Shown here one piece after another: positions 3,153-54,134 of a stretch of 56,896 nucleotides of DNA (position 1 is the first letter of the stretch; every line of letters starts with the position of its first letter). The translations under genes and the position numbers were made by a program. The notes below the pieces were generated by a model. That model worked only from the letters and a program-made list of their open reading frames with translations, did no database searches and was not told the DNA's origin. The stretch spans positions 1 through 56,896 of the IMG/VR virus record IMGVR_UViG_3300024346_000078; one strand, 5' to 3'. The DNA is from a virus.

Positions 3153-3295
3153 AACCAAAAATTTCCAAATAGTTGCAGGGATACAACATAGTCAAGTGTT
3201 ACTCTGCTTAATAAGACATTAAACGGTTGGGTGCTCACCTGAGCCTTTATTGTAGAAAACAAAAATCCACCATAACTAACTTTTTAGGAGTTAAC

Positions 3296-4597
3296 ATGTC
3301 TTTTGACGAATCCCGCCTACGGGAACTACAAGGTGCCTTGCGCACAAAAATGGCAGACAACAAAGCAATTGCTGACTCATTCCAAATTGAGAATGAAACA
3401 GTAGTAGTTGATGCCAAGCAGAAGTCAGCATTCGATAGCAACATGCGTGATATCCGCGAAATCAAGAGCCTCATTGAGGGTCTTGAAGGAATGCGCGATG
3501 TCGATTCATGGTCAAGCCAACCAGCATCTGGTTCGGTAGCACAAGAGTCAAACGCTCAAGGTCAGTGGGCTCCTCAGCCTCAGGCTAAGAGCCTTGGTCA
3601 AATGTTTGTTGATTCTCCAGAATTCAAGGCTTTGGATTCAGGTAAGAATGGCGCAAACATGCCAAGTCCTTTCCAATTGAACCGCGCAGATGTTGCGGGA
3701 ATGTGGAGCACAAAGGATATCTACTCAGCACTTCCATCAGGTAACCCTGGTTCATTTGGTTCAGTCCAGCGTGACCCAATGGTTCTTCCTCCAATGCGTA
3801 CTCGCCGTGTTCGTGACTTGTTCCCAAGCCGCACCACGACAGCAGCAGTTATTGAATACTTCCGTATGACTGGTTTCACCAACAATGCAGCGTCAGTTGC
3901 AGAGCGTGATGGCGGTTCATTCGCTGCCAAGCCACAGTCGTCTTTCTCCTTCGTTGGAGAGCAGGCTCCTGTTCGCACCTTGGCACACTGGGAAGCAGCA
4001 CATCGCAATGTTCTTGCTGATGAGCCACAACTGCGTTCAATCATTGACAACGAACTCCTTTACGGATTGCGTTTGCAGGAAGATTCCCAAATCCTCACAG
4101 GTAACGGTTCAGGTGAAAACCTTCGCGGTATCTTGGAGACCACAGGAATCCAGACATACGACTGGTCTGCTGGACTTGTCGGTGACAACAAGGCTGATGC
4201 GATTCGTCGTGCCGCAACCTTGTCGTTCCTTGCTTACTATGAGCCAACAGGTGTTGTTCTTCACCCTAACGATTGGGAAGACATTGAACTTTCCAAGGAT
4301 GACAATGGTCAGTACCTCGTAGCAGTTTCTGTTGCTATGGGTGGCGAGCCAAAGTTGTGGCGTATTCCTGTGGTTGATACCCCAGCAATGACAGAGGGCA
4401 CTGCTCTTGTCGGTGCTTTCGGTACAGGCGCACAGTTGTATGACCGTGAACAGGCAAGCATCCGTATCAGCGAACAGCATGCAGACTTCTTCGTCCGCAA
4501 CGCTATCGTTGTTCTTGCTGAGCAGCGTTTGGCTCTTGCAGTCAAGCGTCCAGAAGCATTCGTCGCAGTATCTTTCGACGGCGCTCCAGTAGCCTAA
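3296..4597 (+). CDS. Major capsid protein, HK97 fold
   Basis: 433 aa. The start at 3296 is chosen because TTTAGGAG lies just ahead of it; an open frame reaches back to 3227 but lacks a ribosome site. The N-terminal 90 residues are charged and helical (the delta/scaffold region of HK97-type proteins), followed by a Gln/Ser/Pro linker and then the capsid core with the typical pattern MVLPPMRTRRVRDLFPSRTT (P-domain), E-loop region SSFSFVGEQAPVRTLAHWEAAHRNVLAD, and GNGSGENLRGIL. This pattern and length fit the phage_capsid (HK97 gp5) family. It forms the icosahedral shell. It is followed by a strong terminator, as usual for a highly expressed gene. Confidence 0.93.
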   Translation: MSFDESRLRELQGALRTKMADNKAIADSFQIENETVVVDAKQKSAFDSNMRDIREIKSLIEGLEGMRDVDSWSSQPASGSVAQESNAQGQWAPQPQAKSLGQMFVDSPEFKALDSGKNGANMPSPFQLNRADVAGMWSTKDIYSALPSGNPGSFGSVQRDPMVLPPMRTRRVRDLFPSRTTTAAVIEYFRMTGFTNNAASVAERDGGSFAAKPQSSFSFVGEQAPVRTLAHWEAAHRNVLADEPQLRSIIDNELLYGLRLQEDSQILTGNGSGENLRGILETTGIQTYDWSAGLVGDNKADAIRRAATLSFLAYYEPTGVVLHPNDWEDIELSKDDNGQYLVAVSVAMGGEPKLWRIPVVDTPAMTEGTALVGAFGTGAQLYDREQASIRISEQHADFFVRNAIVVLAEQRLALAVKRPEAFVAVSFDGAPVA

Positions 4598-5133: not shown

Positions 5134-7059
5134 TCACTTTACAGGACAAGCACCGCCTGCACAGTCATCGAAATCAACTTCAAATCCGCGAGCGGCTTGC
5201 ATTGGTGCAGAGAAGTCAATCTTTGAGAAAATCTTCTCGTACTCTGCTTCAGTGATTTCCTCATATGGAGGCAATGGGAAGTTATGGTCAGCATGAAGAA
5301 GGAATGAAACCGACTTAACACTCACATCGTAATTATTTGAAAGCCATTCCTTGATTGATTCAAGTTCTTCCTTACGGTAGTACACAGTTACCGACACAGC
5401 ATTGTCTGCCCAGTCGCGCTGTAGAGCACTTACCCATTCCAACTGGTCAATAGCAGTCATATCTTTTGCAAGAACTGAGTTGTCAGGAGACTTACATGGA
5501 AACTCAACTACATACTTAGTGTGGTCTTCGCGTCCATCAAGACCAATGTCCCAAGTGACCTTGTAGCCACGACGACGACAAGCATCAACAAGTTTGTCAG
5601 CAGCACCGAAACGAACACGACGGATGTAGTGACGGGCAAATGCTGGGTGGATTCCTGGCGTTACGCCAGGAAGAAGTGACAAGGTTCCTGAAGGCTGAAC
5701 TGTTGTTAGACGCACAGATACTGGAAGTTTGTTTTCAGCAGAGTAAGACTTGTCAAACTTGTCAAGTTCTTCATAGCCAGTTTTAAGCCATGAAAGTTGC
5801 TCTGTGTTGCACTGAAGGATTCCTGTAACAGATTGTCCAAGTCGTGCATTCTTCTTAACGATGTTTGTTGTTTTCTCGTATGGGTAATCCATTTGAGTAA
5901 TGCGCTTTTGGCAGAGATACAGCAGGCGTGAGATTTCACAGAACTGCTCGTATGACTCAATGTTCGGCAAGAACAAAGTTGCAAGGTTGCAAGACTCCCC
6001 GTCGGCTAGAGCAATCTCTGCGCAGGGGTTGAAGCCCTCAATAGATGGGTCAGGGCGCTTCTCCCCAGTACGACCGAATTGACGCGCTAGGCGGCGATTG
6101 AGAAGCCCGTACGGCTCTCCGTTGCCTCCGTAACCCTTCCAAAGTTCAGGAAGGATGTGGTCATAGTAGTCAGCGTAAATACTGTTGTTTGAGTTTGCCC
6201 GCCATGCAGGTACATCGCCGCTTCCCCAGTTCTTTGCACGAAGGAAAAGAACATCGTCAGGGTCACCGATTGCAATTTGTGCTGAACGACGAGAAGAACC
6301 AGAAACAACAATACGACCAATGATGTTGCAAATATCAAGCACATCTACTGAACGGAGTTTCTTTCCTGCACGATTGTTCATCACATTACAAATGTCTTCA
6401 ATGCCGTCGATAAGAGCACCAGGACCAGACGCAGTACCACCGAATGTGCTCAACTTGGCACCAAATTCACGAACAAGGATTGTTGAGTAAGTGAACGACT
6501 TACCTGTAACAAAGTACGACTTCAATGCAGCGTGAAGAAGGCGACGCCATCCACCACGAGAGTCAGGAACAATAATGTCTGCATCGTTTGTGCGCTCATG
6601 AGTGATTGTTACATTTGACTTGACCTTAGGAAGGTCATGAATCTTGGAACGCTCAACAGAGAACCCAACTCCACCGCCAAGCATGAGATAGTCAAAGAGA
6701 AGTTCAAAGTCTTCAATCTTTTCAATGTTGGTGAAGTAGCAGTTGTTCATTGATGTACCGTTGAACTGCTGTACAAGTGGTGTACCTAATTGCCATAATG
6801 CGCGTCCGCTGAATGAACAGCGAAGGTTGAACATGTGGTCAAAAAGTTTTTCTGCATCTTCTTTTGAGTACGGAACCCCAATGTCGTATGCACCATTAAT
6901 GCATCGCTCAATTGTTTCAGCCCATGTTTCATTCATATCTGTGCCGTCAACTGGACGGCTATAAGTGCGCAGATAAACAATCTCGCCCAGACCACCAAAA
7001 CCCCAAGGTGGTGTTTGGTTTTCGTACGACAAAACAAACGATTTATCAAGTATTGACAC
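5134..7059 (-). CDS. nrdJ: Adenosylcobalamin-dependent (class II) ribonucleoside triphosphate reductase
   Basis: 641 aa, GTG start with ribosome site AGGGGAC. It reduces ribonucleotides to deoxyribonucleotides with vitamin B12 as radical source, so it needs no oxygen. The cysteines match the Lactobacillus leichmannii monomeric enzyme: C107 in MNNCYF, radical Cys C346 in NPCAEI and its partner C357 (11 residues apart, as in the model enzyme), and a C-terminal shuttle pair C633/C638 in CAGGAC. The model enzyme is 739 aa, so this is a trimmed version. A thioredoxin at 20370-20687 could re-reduce the C-terminal pair. Many phages carry this enzyme to boost dNTP supply. Confidence 0.95.
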   Translation of the reverse strand: MSILDKSFVLSYENQTPPWGFGGLGEIVYLRTYSRPVDGTDMNETWAETIERCINGAYDIGVPYSKEDAEKLFDHMFNLRCSFSGRALWQLGTPLVQQFNGTSMNNCYFTNIEKIEDFELLFDYLMLGGGVGFSVERSKIHDLPKVKSNVTITHERTNDADIIVPDSRGGWRRLLHAALKSYFVTGKSFTYSTILVREFGAKLSTFGGTASGPGALIDGIEDICNVMNNRAGKKLRSVDVLDICNIIGRIVVSGSSRRSAQIAIGDPDDVLFLRAKNWGSGDVPAWRANSNNSIYADYYDHILPELWKGYGGNGEPYGLLNRRLARQFGRTGEKRPDPSIEGFNPCAEIALADGESCNLATLFLPNIESYEQFCEISRLLYLCQKRITQMDYPYEKTTNIVKKNARLGQSVTGILQCNTEQLSWLKTGYEELDKFDKSYSAENKLPVSVRLTTVQPSGTLSLLPGVTPGIHPAFARHYIRRVRFGAADKLVDACRRRGYKVTWDIGLDGREDHTKYVVEFPCKSPDNSVLAKDMTAIDQLEWVSALQRDWADNAVSVTVYYRKEELESIKEWLSNNYDVSVKSVSFLLHADHNFPLPPYEEITEAEYEKIFSKIDFSAPMQAARGFEVDFDDCAGGACPVK

Positions 7060-43606: not shown

Positions 43607-43631
43607 CCCTGACACACCCCTCTGATACATT
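43603..43631 (+). promoter_or_regulatory. ACACCC-family promoter
   Basis: Spacer CTGACACACCCCTCTGA, -10 TACATT, then GAGGG. Confidence 0.65.
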
Positions 43632-43687
43632 GAGGGAGTCGGAGAGAAAACCGACAAATAAATAAAAAAAGAATTATCAAAATAAAG

Positions 43688-43716
43688 TTGCAATTACCGC
43701 AAACCTTTGATAAATT
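43688..43716 (+). promoter_or_regulatory. Class-2-like promoter of the MoxR operon
   Basis: TTGCAA, 17-nt spacer, TAAATT; an A/T-rich stretch precedes. Second promoter for the operon after 43603. Confidence 0.6.
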
Positions 43717-43769
43717 AAAACCGTTGAGCAATCAACTAGACCAATTAAACATAGAAAAGGAAACATCCA

Positions 43770-44480
43770 ATGAACGAACAACTTCCACAGTGCTGGCAAG
43801 ATGTAGAAGATGCACTCAATGCAGGCATCGACCGAATCATCTTGTTCGGACCCCCAGGAACTGGCAAGACCTACGCAGGTCTCAACCTAGGCGATGTAGA
43901 GGCAGGCGCACACCGTCTCATCTGCACCGACGACATGACCAACGCAGAAGTGACTGGTCACTACATTCCGTCAGGCAATGACTGGCAATGGAAAGACGGC
44001 ACTGCTGTCAAAGCATGGCAAGGCGATGGTCTCCGTGGCGGTCGTCTCGTAGTAGACGAAATTGACAAAGCAGGTGGCGATGTTTACGCAACGCTCCTCG
44101 CAATGACCGACACACCTGACTCCGCAAAGTGGGAGCGTCCAACAGACGGTCGCACACTGCGTCCTCTTGATGGTTTCTCCGTAGTGATGACAACCAACAT
44201 TGAAGATATGCGTGAACTTCCAGAAGCACTGCTTGACCGTTTTGCAATCGCAATCCGAATCAACCAACCGCACCCGAACGCATTAGCAAAGTTGTCACCC
44301 GACTTGCGTAAATATGCAATTCGTATGTGTGATGCAGGCGAGCGCAGAATTAGTCTCCGTACCTTCTTCGCATTTGACAAGTTGCGCACAACGCTCGGTG
44401 AAGAGCGAGCATCCAACCTCGTGTTCGGTGACCGTGCACAATCATTCCGTGATGCAATCGCAGTAGACAAGGTTGCGTAA
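43770..44480 (+). CDS. MoxR/CobS-like AAA+ ATPase
   Basis: 236 aa behind AAAAGGAAA. Walker A FGPPGTGKTYAG, Walker B LVVDEIDKAGGD, sensor 1 VVMTTNIEDMRELPEALLDRF with the arginine finger. Size and motifs fit the MoxR branch, which works with von Willebrand A proteins as chaperone or metal inserter. Its stop overlaps the VWA gene by one base, so the pair is translated together. Confidence 0.9.
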   Translation: MNEQLPQCWQDVEDALNAGIDRIILFGPPGTGKTYAGLNLGDVEAGAHRLICTDDMTNAEVTGHYIPSGNDWQWKDGTAVKAWQGDGLRGGRLVVDEIDKAGGDVYATLLAMTDTPDSAKWERPTDGRTLRPLDGFSVVMTTNIEDMRELPEALLDRFAIAIRINQPHPNALAKLSPDLRKYAIRMCDAGERRISLRTFFAFDKLRTTLGEERASNLVFGDRAQSFRDAIAVDKVA

Positions 44481-45946
44481 TGACTGGTCACTTACCAATC
44501 CCCGAAATGCTAGGTCGTAAAGACACGGCACACGGACAATGGACTATTGATACTTGCGCACCTGTGCGTGGGCTACCGATGACGAACATCATTGACAAGA
44601 AGATGATTGTTCCGACCGACCCTGCAGAAACAGAACGACACATTCGTGCACACGAAATGGTTCACGCAAAAGTTTCACCTGCAGAAGATTTTCAGAAATG
44701 GATTATCAGAGGCGTTGCAACAGAAACTGCACTTCGTGCTGTTGAAGAGTTTCGTGTAAACCTTCTCTTGAAGAAGGCTGGCTTTGACCCCGAGAAATAT
44801 CTTCTTGACGGAAGTGAGCGTCACGCTGGAGAACAACTTTCAGAGCGTGGCGATTGGGCTGGCTGTGTTTACACAACAGTTGGTTTCTCATCGTGCGCAT
44901 CACTCAAAGAGTTTCTTACAGGCGTACGGCGTAACAATCGTGAATGGGGCGCAACGCTCTTAGCAATCTCTAAGAAGGTTGGCAAAGAGTTAGAAAAGTC
45001 TTACAAGGCTGGGCGACTCGGTTCAACAGAAATTGACCAACGCACACAACTTGCACCATTAGGATTTGCAGAAGTTGAACGCATTGCAGAAATGATTGAC
45101 CGTATTGCGAATCCACCACAACCTGAACCCGAAGAAGAACAACCTGAACAGGCTGGCGAAGAAGGTAAGGCTGGCGAAGAAGCAGGCGCAAAGAAAGAAG
45201 AAGGCAAGGCTGGAGCACCTAAAAAAGCACCAGTTGATAAAGATGCTCTCAAGAATATGCAACCTGCAAAGTCACACGGTCGTGGGAGCGTTCCTCAATG
45301 GGGAGAACTCAAGGTTCGTAAACTTCCATTGACACGACACGCAAAGGGCGGTCTCGGTCGCAAGCGTAAAGCGACAGACATGGGGCGTAGTCCACGGCGT
45401 ATCGGAAATATGCTCACAGACCCACAGAAGCGAATCTTTGACTCAACCAAGAGAGGCAACGGCGGTGTGGTCATCATTGATGGTTCAGGCTCCATGTCAC
45501 TCAAGACGGAAGATATTGTTCGCATCGTTGATACGGCACACGGCGCAACTGTTGCGGTGTACTCGGCTGATGGTGAGAACAAGAAAGACAATCTTCTCAT
45601 CCTTGCGGAAAAGGGAAAGATGGTCTCATCACTTCCCGACCGTAACGGCGGTAACGGAGTTGATGCACCTGCATTGCGTTGGGCAATCAATCAGAAGCAA
45701 CACAAGAACGCTCCTGTCATCTTCATCACTGATGGTGCTGTTCACGGATTGCGAGATGGTTACAACGACCTGTTAGCGATGGATTGCATCAACCTCGTGT
45801 TGAAGCACAAAGTCACTGTTGCGAACGATGTCAATCAAGGCGTGAAAGTTTTGGAAGAAATCAAAGCAGGACGGAAACCAACAAAATGGTATCCACGATT
45901 GTGGCGACAGACTTACCGTGAACTGACAGGAACGGAACTGCGATAA
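44480..45946 (+). CDS. VWA-domain protein with HEMVH motif, MoxR partner
   Basis: 488 aa. Region 1 (about 50-180) has HIRAHEMVHAKVS, an HExxH zinc-protease-like motif, followed by EEFRVN with a possible third ligand Glu. A charged linker (PQPEPEEEQPEQAGEEGKAGEEAG) follows. The C-terminal VWA domain has a MIDAS site DGSGSMS and a later TDGAVHG. MoxR-VWA pairs remodel proteins or insert metals (as CobS-CobT in cobalt chelation); the extra metalloprotease-like site suggests a peptidase or chelatase-like role. Ends in a GAAA hairpin. Confidence 0.85.
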   Translation: MTGHLPIPEMLGRKDTAHGQWTIDTCAPVRGLPMTNIIDKKMIVPTDPAETERHIRAHEMVHAKVSPAEDFQKWIIRGVATETALRAVEEFRVNLLLKKAGFDPEKYLLDGSERHAGEQLSERGDWAGCVYTTVGFSSCASLKEFLTGVRRNNREWGATLLAISKKVGKELEKSYKAGRLGSTEIDQRTQLAPLGFAEVERIAEMIDRIANPPQPEPEEEQPEQAGEEGKAGEEAGAKKEEGKAGAPKKAPVDKDALKNMQPAKSHGRGSVPQWGELKVRKLPLTRHAKGGLGRKRKATDMGRSPRRIGNMLTDPQKRIFDSTKRGNGGVVIIDGSGSMSLKTEDIVRIVDTAHGATVAVYSADGENKKDNLLILAEKGKMVSSLPDRNGGNGVDAPALRWAINQKQHKNAPVIFITDGAVHGLRDGYNDLLAMDCINLVLKHKVTVANDVNQGVKVLEEIKAGRKPTKWYPRLWRQTYRELTGTELR

Positions 45947-46083: not shown

Positions 46084-46380
46084 TCACTTCTTAATTTTTG
46101 TGTCGCCTATCGTCACCTTGTCAAACGCACGAGCGAAGAGCAGTGCGAGAGAAAGCAGGATTGCATCACCAGTGCTCACAGAATCGATATCAAGAATGTG
46201 TGCCACCATCGTGACAAGACTTGTCCATACAGTAACGAGCAACACGAAGCCCATCACACCCTGCACAGATTTTGTAATCGCTGTAGCGCGTTCTGCGCTC
46301 ATTTTATTGTTTTCTGTTACGGCTGGGATACGAAACTTACTTTCACTGTTTCCAATTTGTGGATTTTTCCATTCAGTCAT
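46084..46380 (-). CDS. Membrane protein in the SOS-controlled pair
   Basis: 98 aa starting MTEWKNPQIGNS; it overlaps the upstream gene by 8 nt. Two hydrophobic helices: GVMGFVLLVTVWTSLVTMVAHIL and GDAILLSLALLFARAF, with a basic tail DTKIKK. Two-helix proteins of this size resemble holins or membrane toxins. Under the SOS boxes at 46764-46818 through its partner. Confidence 0.65.
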   Translation of the reverse strand: MTEWKNPQIGNSESKFRIPAVTENNKMSAERATAITKSVQGVMGFVLLVTVWTSLVTMVAHILDIDSVSTGDAILLSLALLFARAFDKVTIGDTKIKK

Positions 46381-46759
46381 TGCATAAATCTTTCGTAATC
46401 TGGTGGACACGCTGGCGTGAGATATTGAACTCGTCTGCAATCGTTTGCAGGCTCGCACCATCGTTGCGAAGTTTCACAATCTCTGCATCACGCTGTGTAT
46501 CGATGGCTGGCCCTGGATTCAGTTTCCACGACCATCCCTGAAGTGACTGGAGAAGGTTTGTGCGTGTCTCGCTCAGCAGACCTGCACGGTTGCGTTGCCT
46601 CATGTAGCCGACCCATGCGCCGAGCGGAATGGTTGTGTCTTTGTGAAGTTCCACATGGCTTGATGGTACGAGGGCGTTGCCTGTTCTGGCAACATACTGC
46701 TGGAGGGCATCGAAGTGATTTGCCCACCTATCTGAATTGGGGATTTTTACTTGCGTCAT
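46373..46759 (-). CDS. Helicase-associated-domain plus HTH protein under SOS boxes
   Basis: 128 aa. The first 75 residues match the bacterial helicase-associated (HA) domain: RWANHFDALQQYVARTGNALVP, then PLGAWVGYMRQRNRAGLLS, then LLQSLQGWSWKL. The C-terminal 40 residues are a helix-turn-helix: AEIVKLRNDGASLQTIADEFNISRQRVHQITKDL. Such HA-HTH proteins are likely DNA-binding factors. Two LexA-type boxes lie in its promoter, so the gene pair probably responds to DNA damage. It stands against the direction of all neighbours. Confidence 0.8.
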   Translation of the reverse strand: MTQVKIPNSDRWANHFDALQQYVARTGNALVPSSHVELHKDTTIPLGAWVGYMRQRNRAGLLSETRTNLLQSLQGWSWKLNPGPAIDTQRDAEIVKLRNDGASLQTIADEFNISRQRVHQITKDLCND

Positions 46760-46763
46760 GACA

Positions 46764-46777
46764 CGAACACTAGTTCG
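46764..46777. promoter_or_regulatory. LexA (SOS) box 1
   Basis: CGAACACTAGTTCG, 5 nt upstream of the ATG at 46759; extended to ACGAAC ... GTTCGT. Confidence 0.7.
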
Positions 46778-46804
46778 TATAACCCTGTCATGTCTTGCAA
46801 TCTA

Positions 46805-46818
46805 CGAACATTTGTTCG
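46805..46818. promoter_or_regulatory. LexA (SOS) box 2
   Basis: CGAACATTTGTTCG, 41 nt from box 1 (start to start), about four helical turns. Confidence 0.7.
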
Positions 46819-53220: not shown

Positions 53221-53526
53221 CTATTTTGGGTACATTTGGGCGATTGATGGTCTGACTGGGGTGATGCCTAGTCGTTTTTGTTCGTTGTGCAACTGGCGTG
53301 ATGTAAACCCTGCCCATACTCCGTGCATGTCTGCTGGTGGGTATTCTAGGGCGTATGCGAGGCATTGGGTTTGTACTGTGCATTCTGCGCAGATGGCTCG
53401 TGCTTGTTTGATGTAGGTGATGTCTTTGTATTCTGTGGGGAACATGAGGTTTGTTTTCCCTTTGCAGTTTGCTCGGCTGCGCCAGTCGCTTGTGTGTATA
53501 TCGGATAAATCTATTTGGTTTGTCAT
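53221..53526 (-). CDS. whiB: WhiB-family regulator (copy 2)
   Basis: 101 aa. SRANCKG, then CAECTVQTQC, the turn GVWAGFTSRQLHNEQKRLG and basic end match the WhiB/Wbl family ([4Fe-4S], four Cys). Its ATG overlaps the stop of the proteasome-like gene by 4 nt, so both are made from one mRNA. With copy 1 the phage has two WhiB proteins that could control different promoters. Confidence 0.92.
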   Translation of the reverse strand: MTNQIDLSDIHTSDWRSRANCKGKTNLMFPTEYKDITYIKQARAICAECTVQTQCLAYALEYPPADMHGVWAGFTSRQLHNEQKRLGITPVRPSIAQMYPK

Positions 53527-54134
53527 TTGGTTAAATCCTGTGTATAGGTCTGAAATGGGGCACCCGTATAGGGGTCGAACTTTGTTGCGACGGTTAATGC
53601 TTTAACAGCAATATTCTTTGCTTGTTGTATTGTGGGTCGTACTTTGGGCTGTAATGCCTGTATCGCACCCAACGCATATGGGGCTCCGCTACCTATAGCA
53701 TAAATACCGTTCGTATCCGAAGTCCATGAATAATCAGACTCAATAATGTAAATAGTTGCGTTAATAACAGCCAGAATGGTTGAACCCTGCTCAGCGACAT
53801 GTTCCTTATCTGCGTCTGGAGGGCTAGAGTATCCCTGCTCATCAAAACAATGTCTCAATGACGGCACAAACTTGTTAGTGATAAACGCATCCAGTTTCTT
53901 ACCCCTCGTCTGAGGAGTCGGAGTCGGAGGCAGGAAACTGTAGTGCAGAATATTAATCGCTCGTACATCCCCCGCTGCACCTAAAAGATACTTACCATTA
54001 ATAGCAATCTTGCTTGTCCCTGCACCCAAAGTCGTTATCTGATAAGCATTACCAGAAGAATCAAAACTAGAGATACGGGAATCAGTACATAAAACAGCAA
54101 AACCATCCCCCTGTATTCCTACTATGGTTGTCAT
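53523..54134 (-). CDS. Proteasome beta/HslV-like N-terminal-threonine peptidase
   Basis: 203 aa. The start MTTIVGIQGDGFAVLCTDSR leaves Thr at the N-terminus after Met removal; Asp at mature position 17 matches the catalytic Asp of 20S beta subunits and HslV. A Lys (GTSKIAI), GAAGD and later AIGSGAPYALGAIQAL (compare HslV AIGSGGPYAQAAARAL) complete the Ntn-hydrolase fold. It should form a self-compartmentalised protease. No unfoldase is seen nearby. Good GAGGG ribosome site. Confidence 0.9.
   Translation of the reverse strand: MTTIVGIQGDGFAVLCTDSRISSFDSSGNAYQITTLGAGTSKIAINGKYLLGAAGDVRAINILHYSFLPPTPTPQTRGKKLDAFITNKFVPSLRHCFDEQGYSSPPDADKEHVAEQGSTILAVINATIYIIESDYSWTSDTNGIYAIGSGAPYALGAIQALQPKVRPTIQQAKNIAVKALTVATKFDPYTGAPFQTYTQDLTK

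Follow-up and report, generated by a model that had tools for sequence, protein, structure and literature searches.

The viral DNA stretch analysed here (all 56,896 nucleotides of IMG/VR record IMGVR_UViG_3300024346_000078, hereafter the window) encodes a MoxR/CobS-type AAA+ ATPase and, overlapping it, a VWA protein whose N-terminal domain carries a predicted zinc-protease-type active site that is strongly supported by its conservation. Our preferred reading, to which we give about an even chance, is that the pair forms an ATP-driven machine in which a zinc-dependent, gluzincin-type peptidase acts on a DNA replication or repair protein. The relevant features of the window are listed in Table 1.

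Table 1. Features of the window that bear on the ATPase-VWA pair
Feature	Position	Strand	Details
MoxR/CobS-type AAA+ ATPase, 236 aa	43770..44480	+	Walker A GPPGTGKT (27), Walker B VVDEID (94), sensor-1 TTN (141)
VWA partner, 488 aa	44480..45946	+	N-terminal zinc-peptidase-like domain, acidic linker, C-terminal MIDAS VWA
Gluzincin-like domain (predicted), residues 6-215	44495..45124	+	HEMVH on helix 50-65, EEFRVN on helix 82-99, three strands before
Acidic disordered linker, residues 214-252	45119..45235	+	From sequence and pLDDT < 50 at 216-247
VWA region	45446..45943	+	MIDAS DGSGSM (334-339), TDG (417)
Helicase-associated (HA) and Sigma70 region 4 HTH protein	46373..46759	-	Pfam HA 6e-14, Sigma70_r4 2e-6
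Two exact Gram-positive LexA-type (Cheo) boxes	46764..46818	.	CGAACACTAGTTCG and CGAACATTTGTTCG, immediately ahead of the HTH gene start
Adenosylcobalamin-dependent ribonucleoside-triphosphate reductase (RTPR)	5134-7059	-	TIGR02505 over cut-off; in all 9 sampled records of the phage clade

The two genes meet at GTAATGACT, where a single base is common to the stop and the start, and the pairing of the ATPase gene with the gene of the VWA partner is retained in relatives. A preliminary description of the locus, which we find partly supported overall, had reported this one-base coupling, the motifs HEMVH and EEFRVN and an acidic linker ahead of the MIDAS domain. All three hold: both ORFs are present, HEMVH lies at residues 58-62 and EEFRVN at 89-94, ahead of DGSGS (334-338) and TDG (417), and the linker, from about residue 213 on, has 11 D/E against 6 K/R in 39 residues. 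The MIDAS residues D334, S336, S338 and D418 are invariant in 20 sequences, made up of the window protein plus 19 homologues from IMG/VR.

Whether the zinc motif is real is decided by its conservation; from composition, about 0.023 HExxH motifs are expected in the VWA partner. The motif had been read as the zinc site of gluzincin peptidases, with loss of its His and Glu residues in relatives named as the sign of a chance occurrence. The residues are kept. Across 32 homologues, the most distant of them 27% identical, only 13 of 210 domain columns are invariant, and H58, E59, H62, E89, E90, R92 and N94 make up seven of them; the probability that four named columns are all invariant is about 9e-6. 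Both histidines and the general-base glutamate of HExxH occur in 32/32 homologues, and either E89 or E90, both invariant and both on the downstream helix, is a candidate third ligand. HExxH and EExRVN are likewise kept in all 20 non-redundant sequences (the window protein and the 19 IMG/VR homologues, which are 36-69% identical), and, wherever the region is covered, in bacterial genome-bin loci with identities as low as 28%. Some of the homologue scans used peptides of the motif region and are biased towards it. That bias does not touch loci picked through the ATPase alone, for which the motif played no part in selection; they carry it in 20/20 cases, representing about 13 distinct proteins. 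Chance is thus ruled out by the invariance in the 32 homologues. We infer zinc binding and proteolysis by the VWA partner from this pattern; a gluzincin site can also be retained in a structural or metal-carrying role.

The full-length AlphaFold2 model of the VWA partner has a pLDDT of 79 and that of the isolated N-terminal domain 93.8; the latter is modelled as three strands, the HEMVH helix, the EEFRVN helix and further helices. In a Foldseek search of PDB structures the highest probabilities belong to the minigluzincins selecase (0.77, 0.69), abylysin and jannalysin, with E > 0.8, and ArdC ranks lower, its E-values also not being significant. Because these PDB E-values are not significant, the fold call rests on the motif, the secondary structure and the ranking, and the zincin-like fold of the N-terminal domain is modelled rather than proven. 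In a viral structure library the best match to the VWA partner has E=1.1e-21; several matches cover the whole length, two of them (699 and 809 aa) equal in length to Ochrobactrum and Stenotrophomonas phage proteins, and polyvalent-protein, SprT-like and other metalloproteases appear at low significance.

Profile searches place the ATPase more readily than its partner. The ATPase matches Pfam AAA_5 over the cut-off (E=9.4e-14), falls just short for the MoxR-type AAA_3 (26.4 bits, cut-off 27), and in PHROGs matches the ATPase family phrog_16448 (2.3e-31) and phrog_249, 'porphyrin biosynthesis' (1e-9). By tblastn it finds cyanophage CobS at 5e-8, as well as Gordonia phages and actinophage DSL-LC01; a Lon protease record from the ATPase search was a false lead. 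The sole convincing PHROGs match of the VWA partner is to the unannotated phrog_33218 (5.5e-42, residues 265-464). It has no family match in Pfam, NCBIfam or PADLOC and no protein-level match in INPHARED at 1e-5, and a PDB sequence search with the family profile gave nothing meaningful. The DUF2201 profile PF13203 has no match in the window record, its controls having matched, and neither has the CobT profile PF06213, whose positive control matched in Caulobacter. Membership in either family is ruled out by these non-matches, as is membership in the bpMoxR family, whose profile reaches only E=0.1 in the window (12.1 bits, cut-off 27). This last result bears on the ternary MoxR-VWA conflict systems, which the preliminary description had counted among the closest named systems, a kinship that the bpMoxR score does not bear out. 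Conflict systems are known to include MoxR-vWA modules that carry effector domains (PMC7159879), and the pair might by analogy be an anti-host or counter-defence effector. The strongest PADLOC match, however, is a weak P-loop (E=8e-4), no third component is conserved and the chromosomal relatives described below include one vertical-looking clade, so that we hold a conflict role to be extremely unlikely.

The locus had also been called an unusual combination for a phage, and this does not stand: the combination of an ATPase with a metallopeptidase-VWA protein is already known and belongs to a widespread phage family. A MoxR ATPase and a vWA protein with a fused N-terminal metallopeptidase have been described in jumbo phages (Iyer et al. 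2021, PMC7824862), and a cyanophage relative is annotated 'peptidase' in 463 phage records, the examined members of which all have HExxH and ExxR. In cyanophage, in Gordonia phages and in actinophage DSL-LC01, the ATPase gene has next to it or nearby the gene of a VWA protein in which E[ED]xR follows HExxH. Further members, all with HExxH, come from Pelagibacter, Ochrobactrum, Stenotrophomonas, Microbacterium and Gordonia phages and from three more cyanophages; in Gordonia phage Forza DELR replaces EELR. Three divergent phage groups have an HExxH...E[ED]xR-VWA protein beside a CobS/MoxR-like ATPase. Profile comparisons among the three give E = 1.1e-5, 3.4e-5 and 7.9e-6, with HExxH aligned on HExxH and ExxR on ExxR.

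Relatives of the pair have been annotated as CobS, CobT or cobalamin biosynthesis, an archaeal-virus paper has argued that the viral cobT was 'mistakenly annotated as a peptidase' (PMC8651126), and CobS-CobT was the other system to which the locus had been likened. On that account the pair would be a viral cobaltochelatase that joins the host CobN, inserts cobalt and raises B12 for the phage ribonucleotide reductase (RNR). The window phage and 8/8 of its sampled relatives do encode a B12-dependent RTPR, and the VWA regions of the phage protein and CobT share a short profile match (E=2e-4). Against this, the CobT profile has no match to the phage, the N-terminal domains of the phage protein and CobT show no significant match, and HExxH is missing from 30/30 bacterial CobT loci. 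CobN was found in 0/20 genomes or records (11 actinobacterial genomes with the pair and 9 viral records; the controls matched, but these MAGs and virus records are possibly incomplete). Among 14 annotated phages with a related pair, 10 have a class I, B12-independent RNR, and an RTPR match is seen only in DSL-LC01. Since the pair occurs both with and without a B12-dependent RNR, it does not follow the need for B12, which as a factor shared by all carriers is ruled out by the RNR type. Three reasons make 'CobST' a poor label (CobT without HExxH, CobN absent, and an RNR of either kind), and a cobaltochelatase role is very unlikely. Kinship with CobS-CobT is remote at most, and a weak case can be made for a possible common origin with CobT. 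The N-terminal domain of bacterial CobT has its own set of invariant or nearly invariant residues, H84, H89, P94, E107 and R110 (HDxxxH...P...EQxR), possibly an altered metal site. We tried the idea that CobT keeps a degenerate zinc site: a combined phage profile scores 19.3 against the CobT N-terminus, where the maximum of 200 decoys (199 column-shuffled, one reversed) is 17.8, but with P=0.026 and an alignment that is unstable between runs this is kept as a lead only.

The neighbours of the pair in other phages point to DNA functions. Prochlorococcus phage P-HM1 and Ochrobactrum phage OC have gp46 (endonuclease subunits) on one side of it and gp45/gp44 (clamp and clamp loader) on the other, and in P-SSM2 it comes after gp46. 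Its neighbourhood includes uvsX, primase/helicase and thyX in DLP_6, thymidylate synthase in GMA2 and dUTPase in GodonK. The window's own context is uninformative because the pair lies among small genes without known function, the closest replication gene being about 9 kb away and the capsid gene (3227-4597) about 39 kb. These contexts bear on the proposal made for the jumbo-phage pair of the same architecture, that it serves virion assembly (PMC7824862, which cites a MoxR-vWA pair needed for archaeal virus tails); the ATPase and VWA protein would then fold or assemble virion proteins that the peptidase trims. Yet in the phages examined the pair is near replication, recombination or nucleotide genes and not head or tail genes, in the window it is far from the capsid gene, and related pairs on bacterial chromosomes adjoin lexA. 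A role in the virion therefore seems unlikely.

Downstream of the VWA gene, most relatives have a minus-strand HTH-like ORF, an association by position only. In the window, LexA-type boxes directly precede this gene, and the same placing recurs in three other loci (L010, L042 and L046). Exact CGAAC-N4-GTTCG boxes number four in the window (17621, 46764, 46805 and 51659), as against 0.01 expected in shuffles, which suggests a host with a Gram-positive-type LexA or a phage repressor that uses this operator. We rejected the idea that the window pair is itself under a LexA box, as its upstream region (43620-43770) contains none. The window phage also encodes a second protease, an HslV/proteasome-fold peptidase on the minus strand at 53523-54134 (phrog_1040; Pfam Proteasome 5e-9).

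Related pairs are found on the chromosomes of actinobacterial MAGs, where the pair is divergent from lexA, the gene of the bacterial regulator of the DNA-damage response, in 6/10 genomes; in most cases a LysM gene, nrdR, a PIG-L deacetylase gene and dinB come after it. One clade, with 100/100 support, unites the acidimicrobial copies, and another set, from freshwater actinobacterial bins, branches with phage L042. The ATPases of L136 and L137 are confirmed; L141 covers the VWA gene at its start only and showed no ATPase ORF of its own. The spacer between lexA and the ATPase gene holds exact CGAAC-N4-GTTCG boxes, two of them in L059, one being 16 bases ahead of the annotated ATPase start, and these lexA-side boxes match the Gram-positive LexA consensus CGAACRNRYGTTYC (PMC2248561). 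The chromosomal members L139, L140 and L143 lack the lexA link, and the lexA-nrdR order could reflect no more than conservation of the gene neighbourhood. Just past the chromosomal VWA gene there are also exact LexA-type boxes in pairs, spaced by about 24 bases (L059 7323/7347, L065 7342/7366, L140 8353/8378, L143 7879/7905), including where lexA is not adjacent; these may serve the next gene. On freshwater actinobacterial MAG contigs (L052 4291-8637, and also L051, L054 and L055) a small VWA gene, the MoxR gene and the HExxH-VWA gene are followed by a gene for a 400-aa protein with the motif SFxITPxEFxLLATFMAP and without a Pfam match, possibly a four-gene version of the pair. A narrow search of the open-access literature found no published lexA-linked chromosomal version of the pair. 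The lexA-linked clade offers a testable route to function.

How the pair might work is best drawn from NorQ-NorD, in which NorQ is a hexamer, a finger of the NorD VWA domain enters the pore and the linker is stretched on ATP turnover (PMC13036017). By analogy, the MoxR-type ATPase would assemble into a ring on which the VWA/MIDAS domain of the partner docks. The N-terminal domain, predicted to be a zinc-dependent gluzincin-type peptidase with H58, H62 and E89 or E90 as ligands and E59 as general base, would then cut or process a protein pulled open by the ring. Across the phages and the chromosomal clade a DNA replication or repair protein is a likelier target than cobalamin synthesis, and we infer a role in DNA maintenance. 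Alternatively, the His-Glu site could be structural or hold a metal, the pair activating or loading an enzyme as a chaperone or metal inserter without proteolysis, as in NorQ-NorD and CbbQ-CbbO. The MoxR-VWA pairs studied so far mostly remodel or metallate their targets, and the acidic flexible linker is compatible with the NorQD cryo-EM structure. A pure metal carrier, however, would not need the general-base Glu of HExxH, which is invariant even in 28% identical chromosomal members, and we judge a non-proteolytic role rather unlikely. Because the domain across the linker has an intact protease-type site, a protease that is recruited to the working ATPase or switched by it is the simplest reading.

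A narrower version of this peptidase reading is motivated by yeast, where the minigluzincin-like Wss1 and the AAA ATPase Cdc48 act on genotoxic protein conjugates (PMC4559962), together with the lexA and replication contexts. Speculatively, the pair would be a prokaryotic and phage counterpart of Wss1-Cdc48 or SPRTN-p97, an AAA+ ring with a minigluzincin-like protease that clears DNA-trapped proteins (e.g., DNA-protein crosslinks or stalled replication factors), LexA-induced in certain actinobacteria and present in the replication gene clusters of many phages. We consider so specific a role distinctly unlikely.

Two published readings of such genes conflict, one taking them for a cobT mislabelled as a peptidase (PMC8651126), the other for a metallopeptidase-fused vWA gene of virion assembly (PMC7824862). 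Our comparisons speak for the peptidase label and against CobST. The label matters because cobS and cobT are commonly listed among the auxiliary metabolic genes for B12 that viruses carry. To this debate we add the lack of HExxH in CobT, the absence of CobN, the independence of the pair from RNR type and the lexA-linked chromosomal clade.

Among known systems, CobS-CobT resembles the window pair in combining an AAA+ ATPase with a MIDAS VWA protein that has an acidic linker, but differs in the features of CobT and CobN given above. The MoxR AAA+/VWA activators NorQ-NorD and CbbQ-CbbO share an AAA_5 ATPase, a VWA partner and a flexible linker with it, whereas the N-terminal domain of NorD is not presented as a peptidase in PMC13036017. 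The bacterial putative metallopeptidases of DUF2201 likewise have an HExxH domain ahead of a VWA MIDAS, although their profile does not match the window partner and profile comparison is weak (E=0.007). Minigluzincins such as selecase, abylysin and jannalysin and the SprT/Wss1 proteases have the HExxH helix and the Glu helix; in the minigluzincins only about 50 residues superpose, at E-values that are not significant, and there is no VWA domain. The T4-like cyanophage 'peptidase' (phrog_459) beside cobS has HExxH...E[ED]xR followed by a MIDAS VWA and an adjacent CobS-like AAA+ ATPase, with a profile link of E=1.1e-5. At about 740 aa it is 12% identical to the window partner in the aligned core, and its VWA gene precedes the ATPase gene, whereas in the window the ATPase gene comes first. 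The group 2.2 jumbo-phage pair (ASV44729.1 / ASV44728.2; PMC7824862), likened here by its published description, is the same gene pair with the same domain order; it belongs to other phages, whereas the window has a short 236-aa ATPase and a 488-aa partner without a Pfam match, and the context of its relatives points to DNA functions, not to virions.
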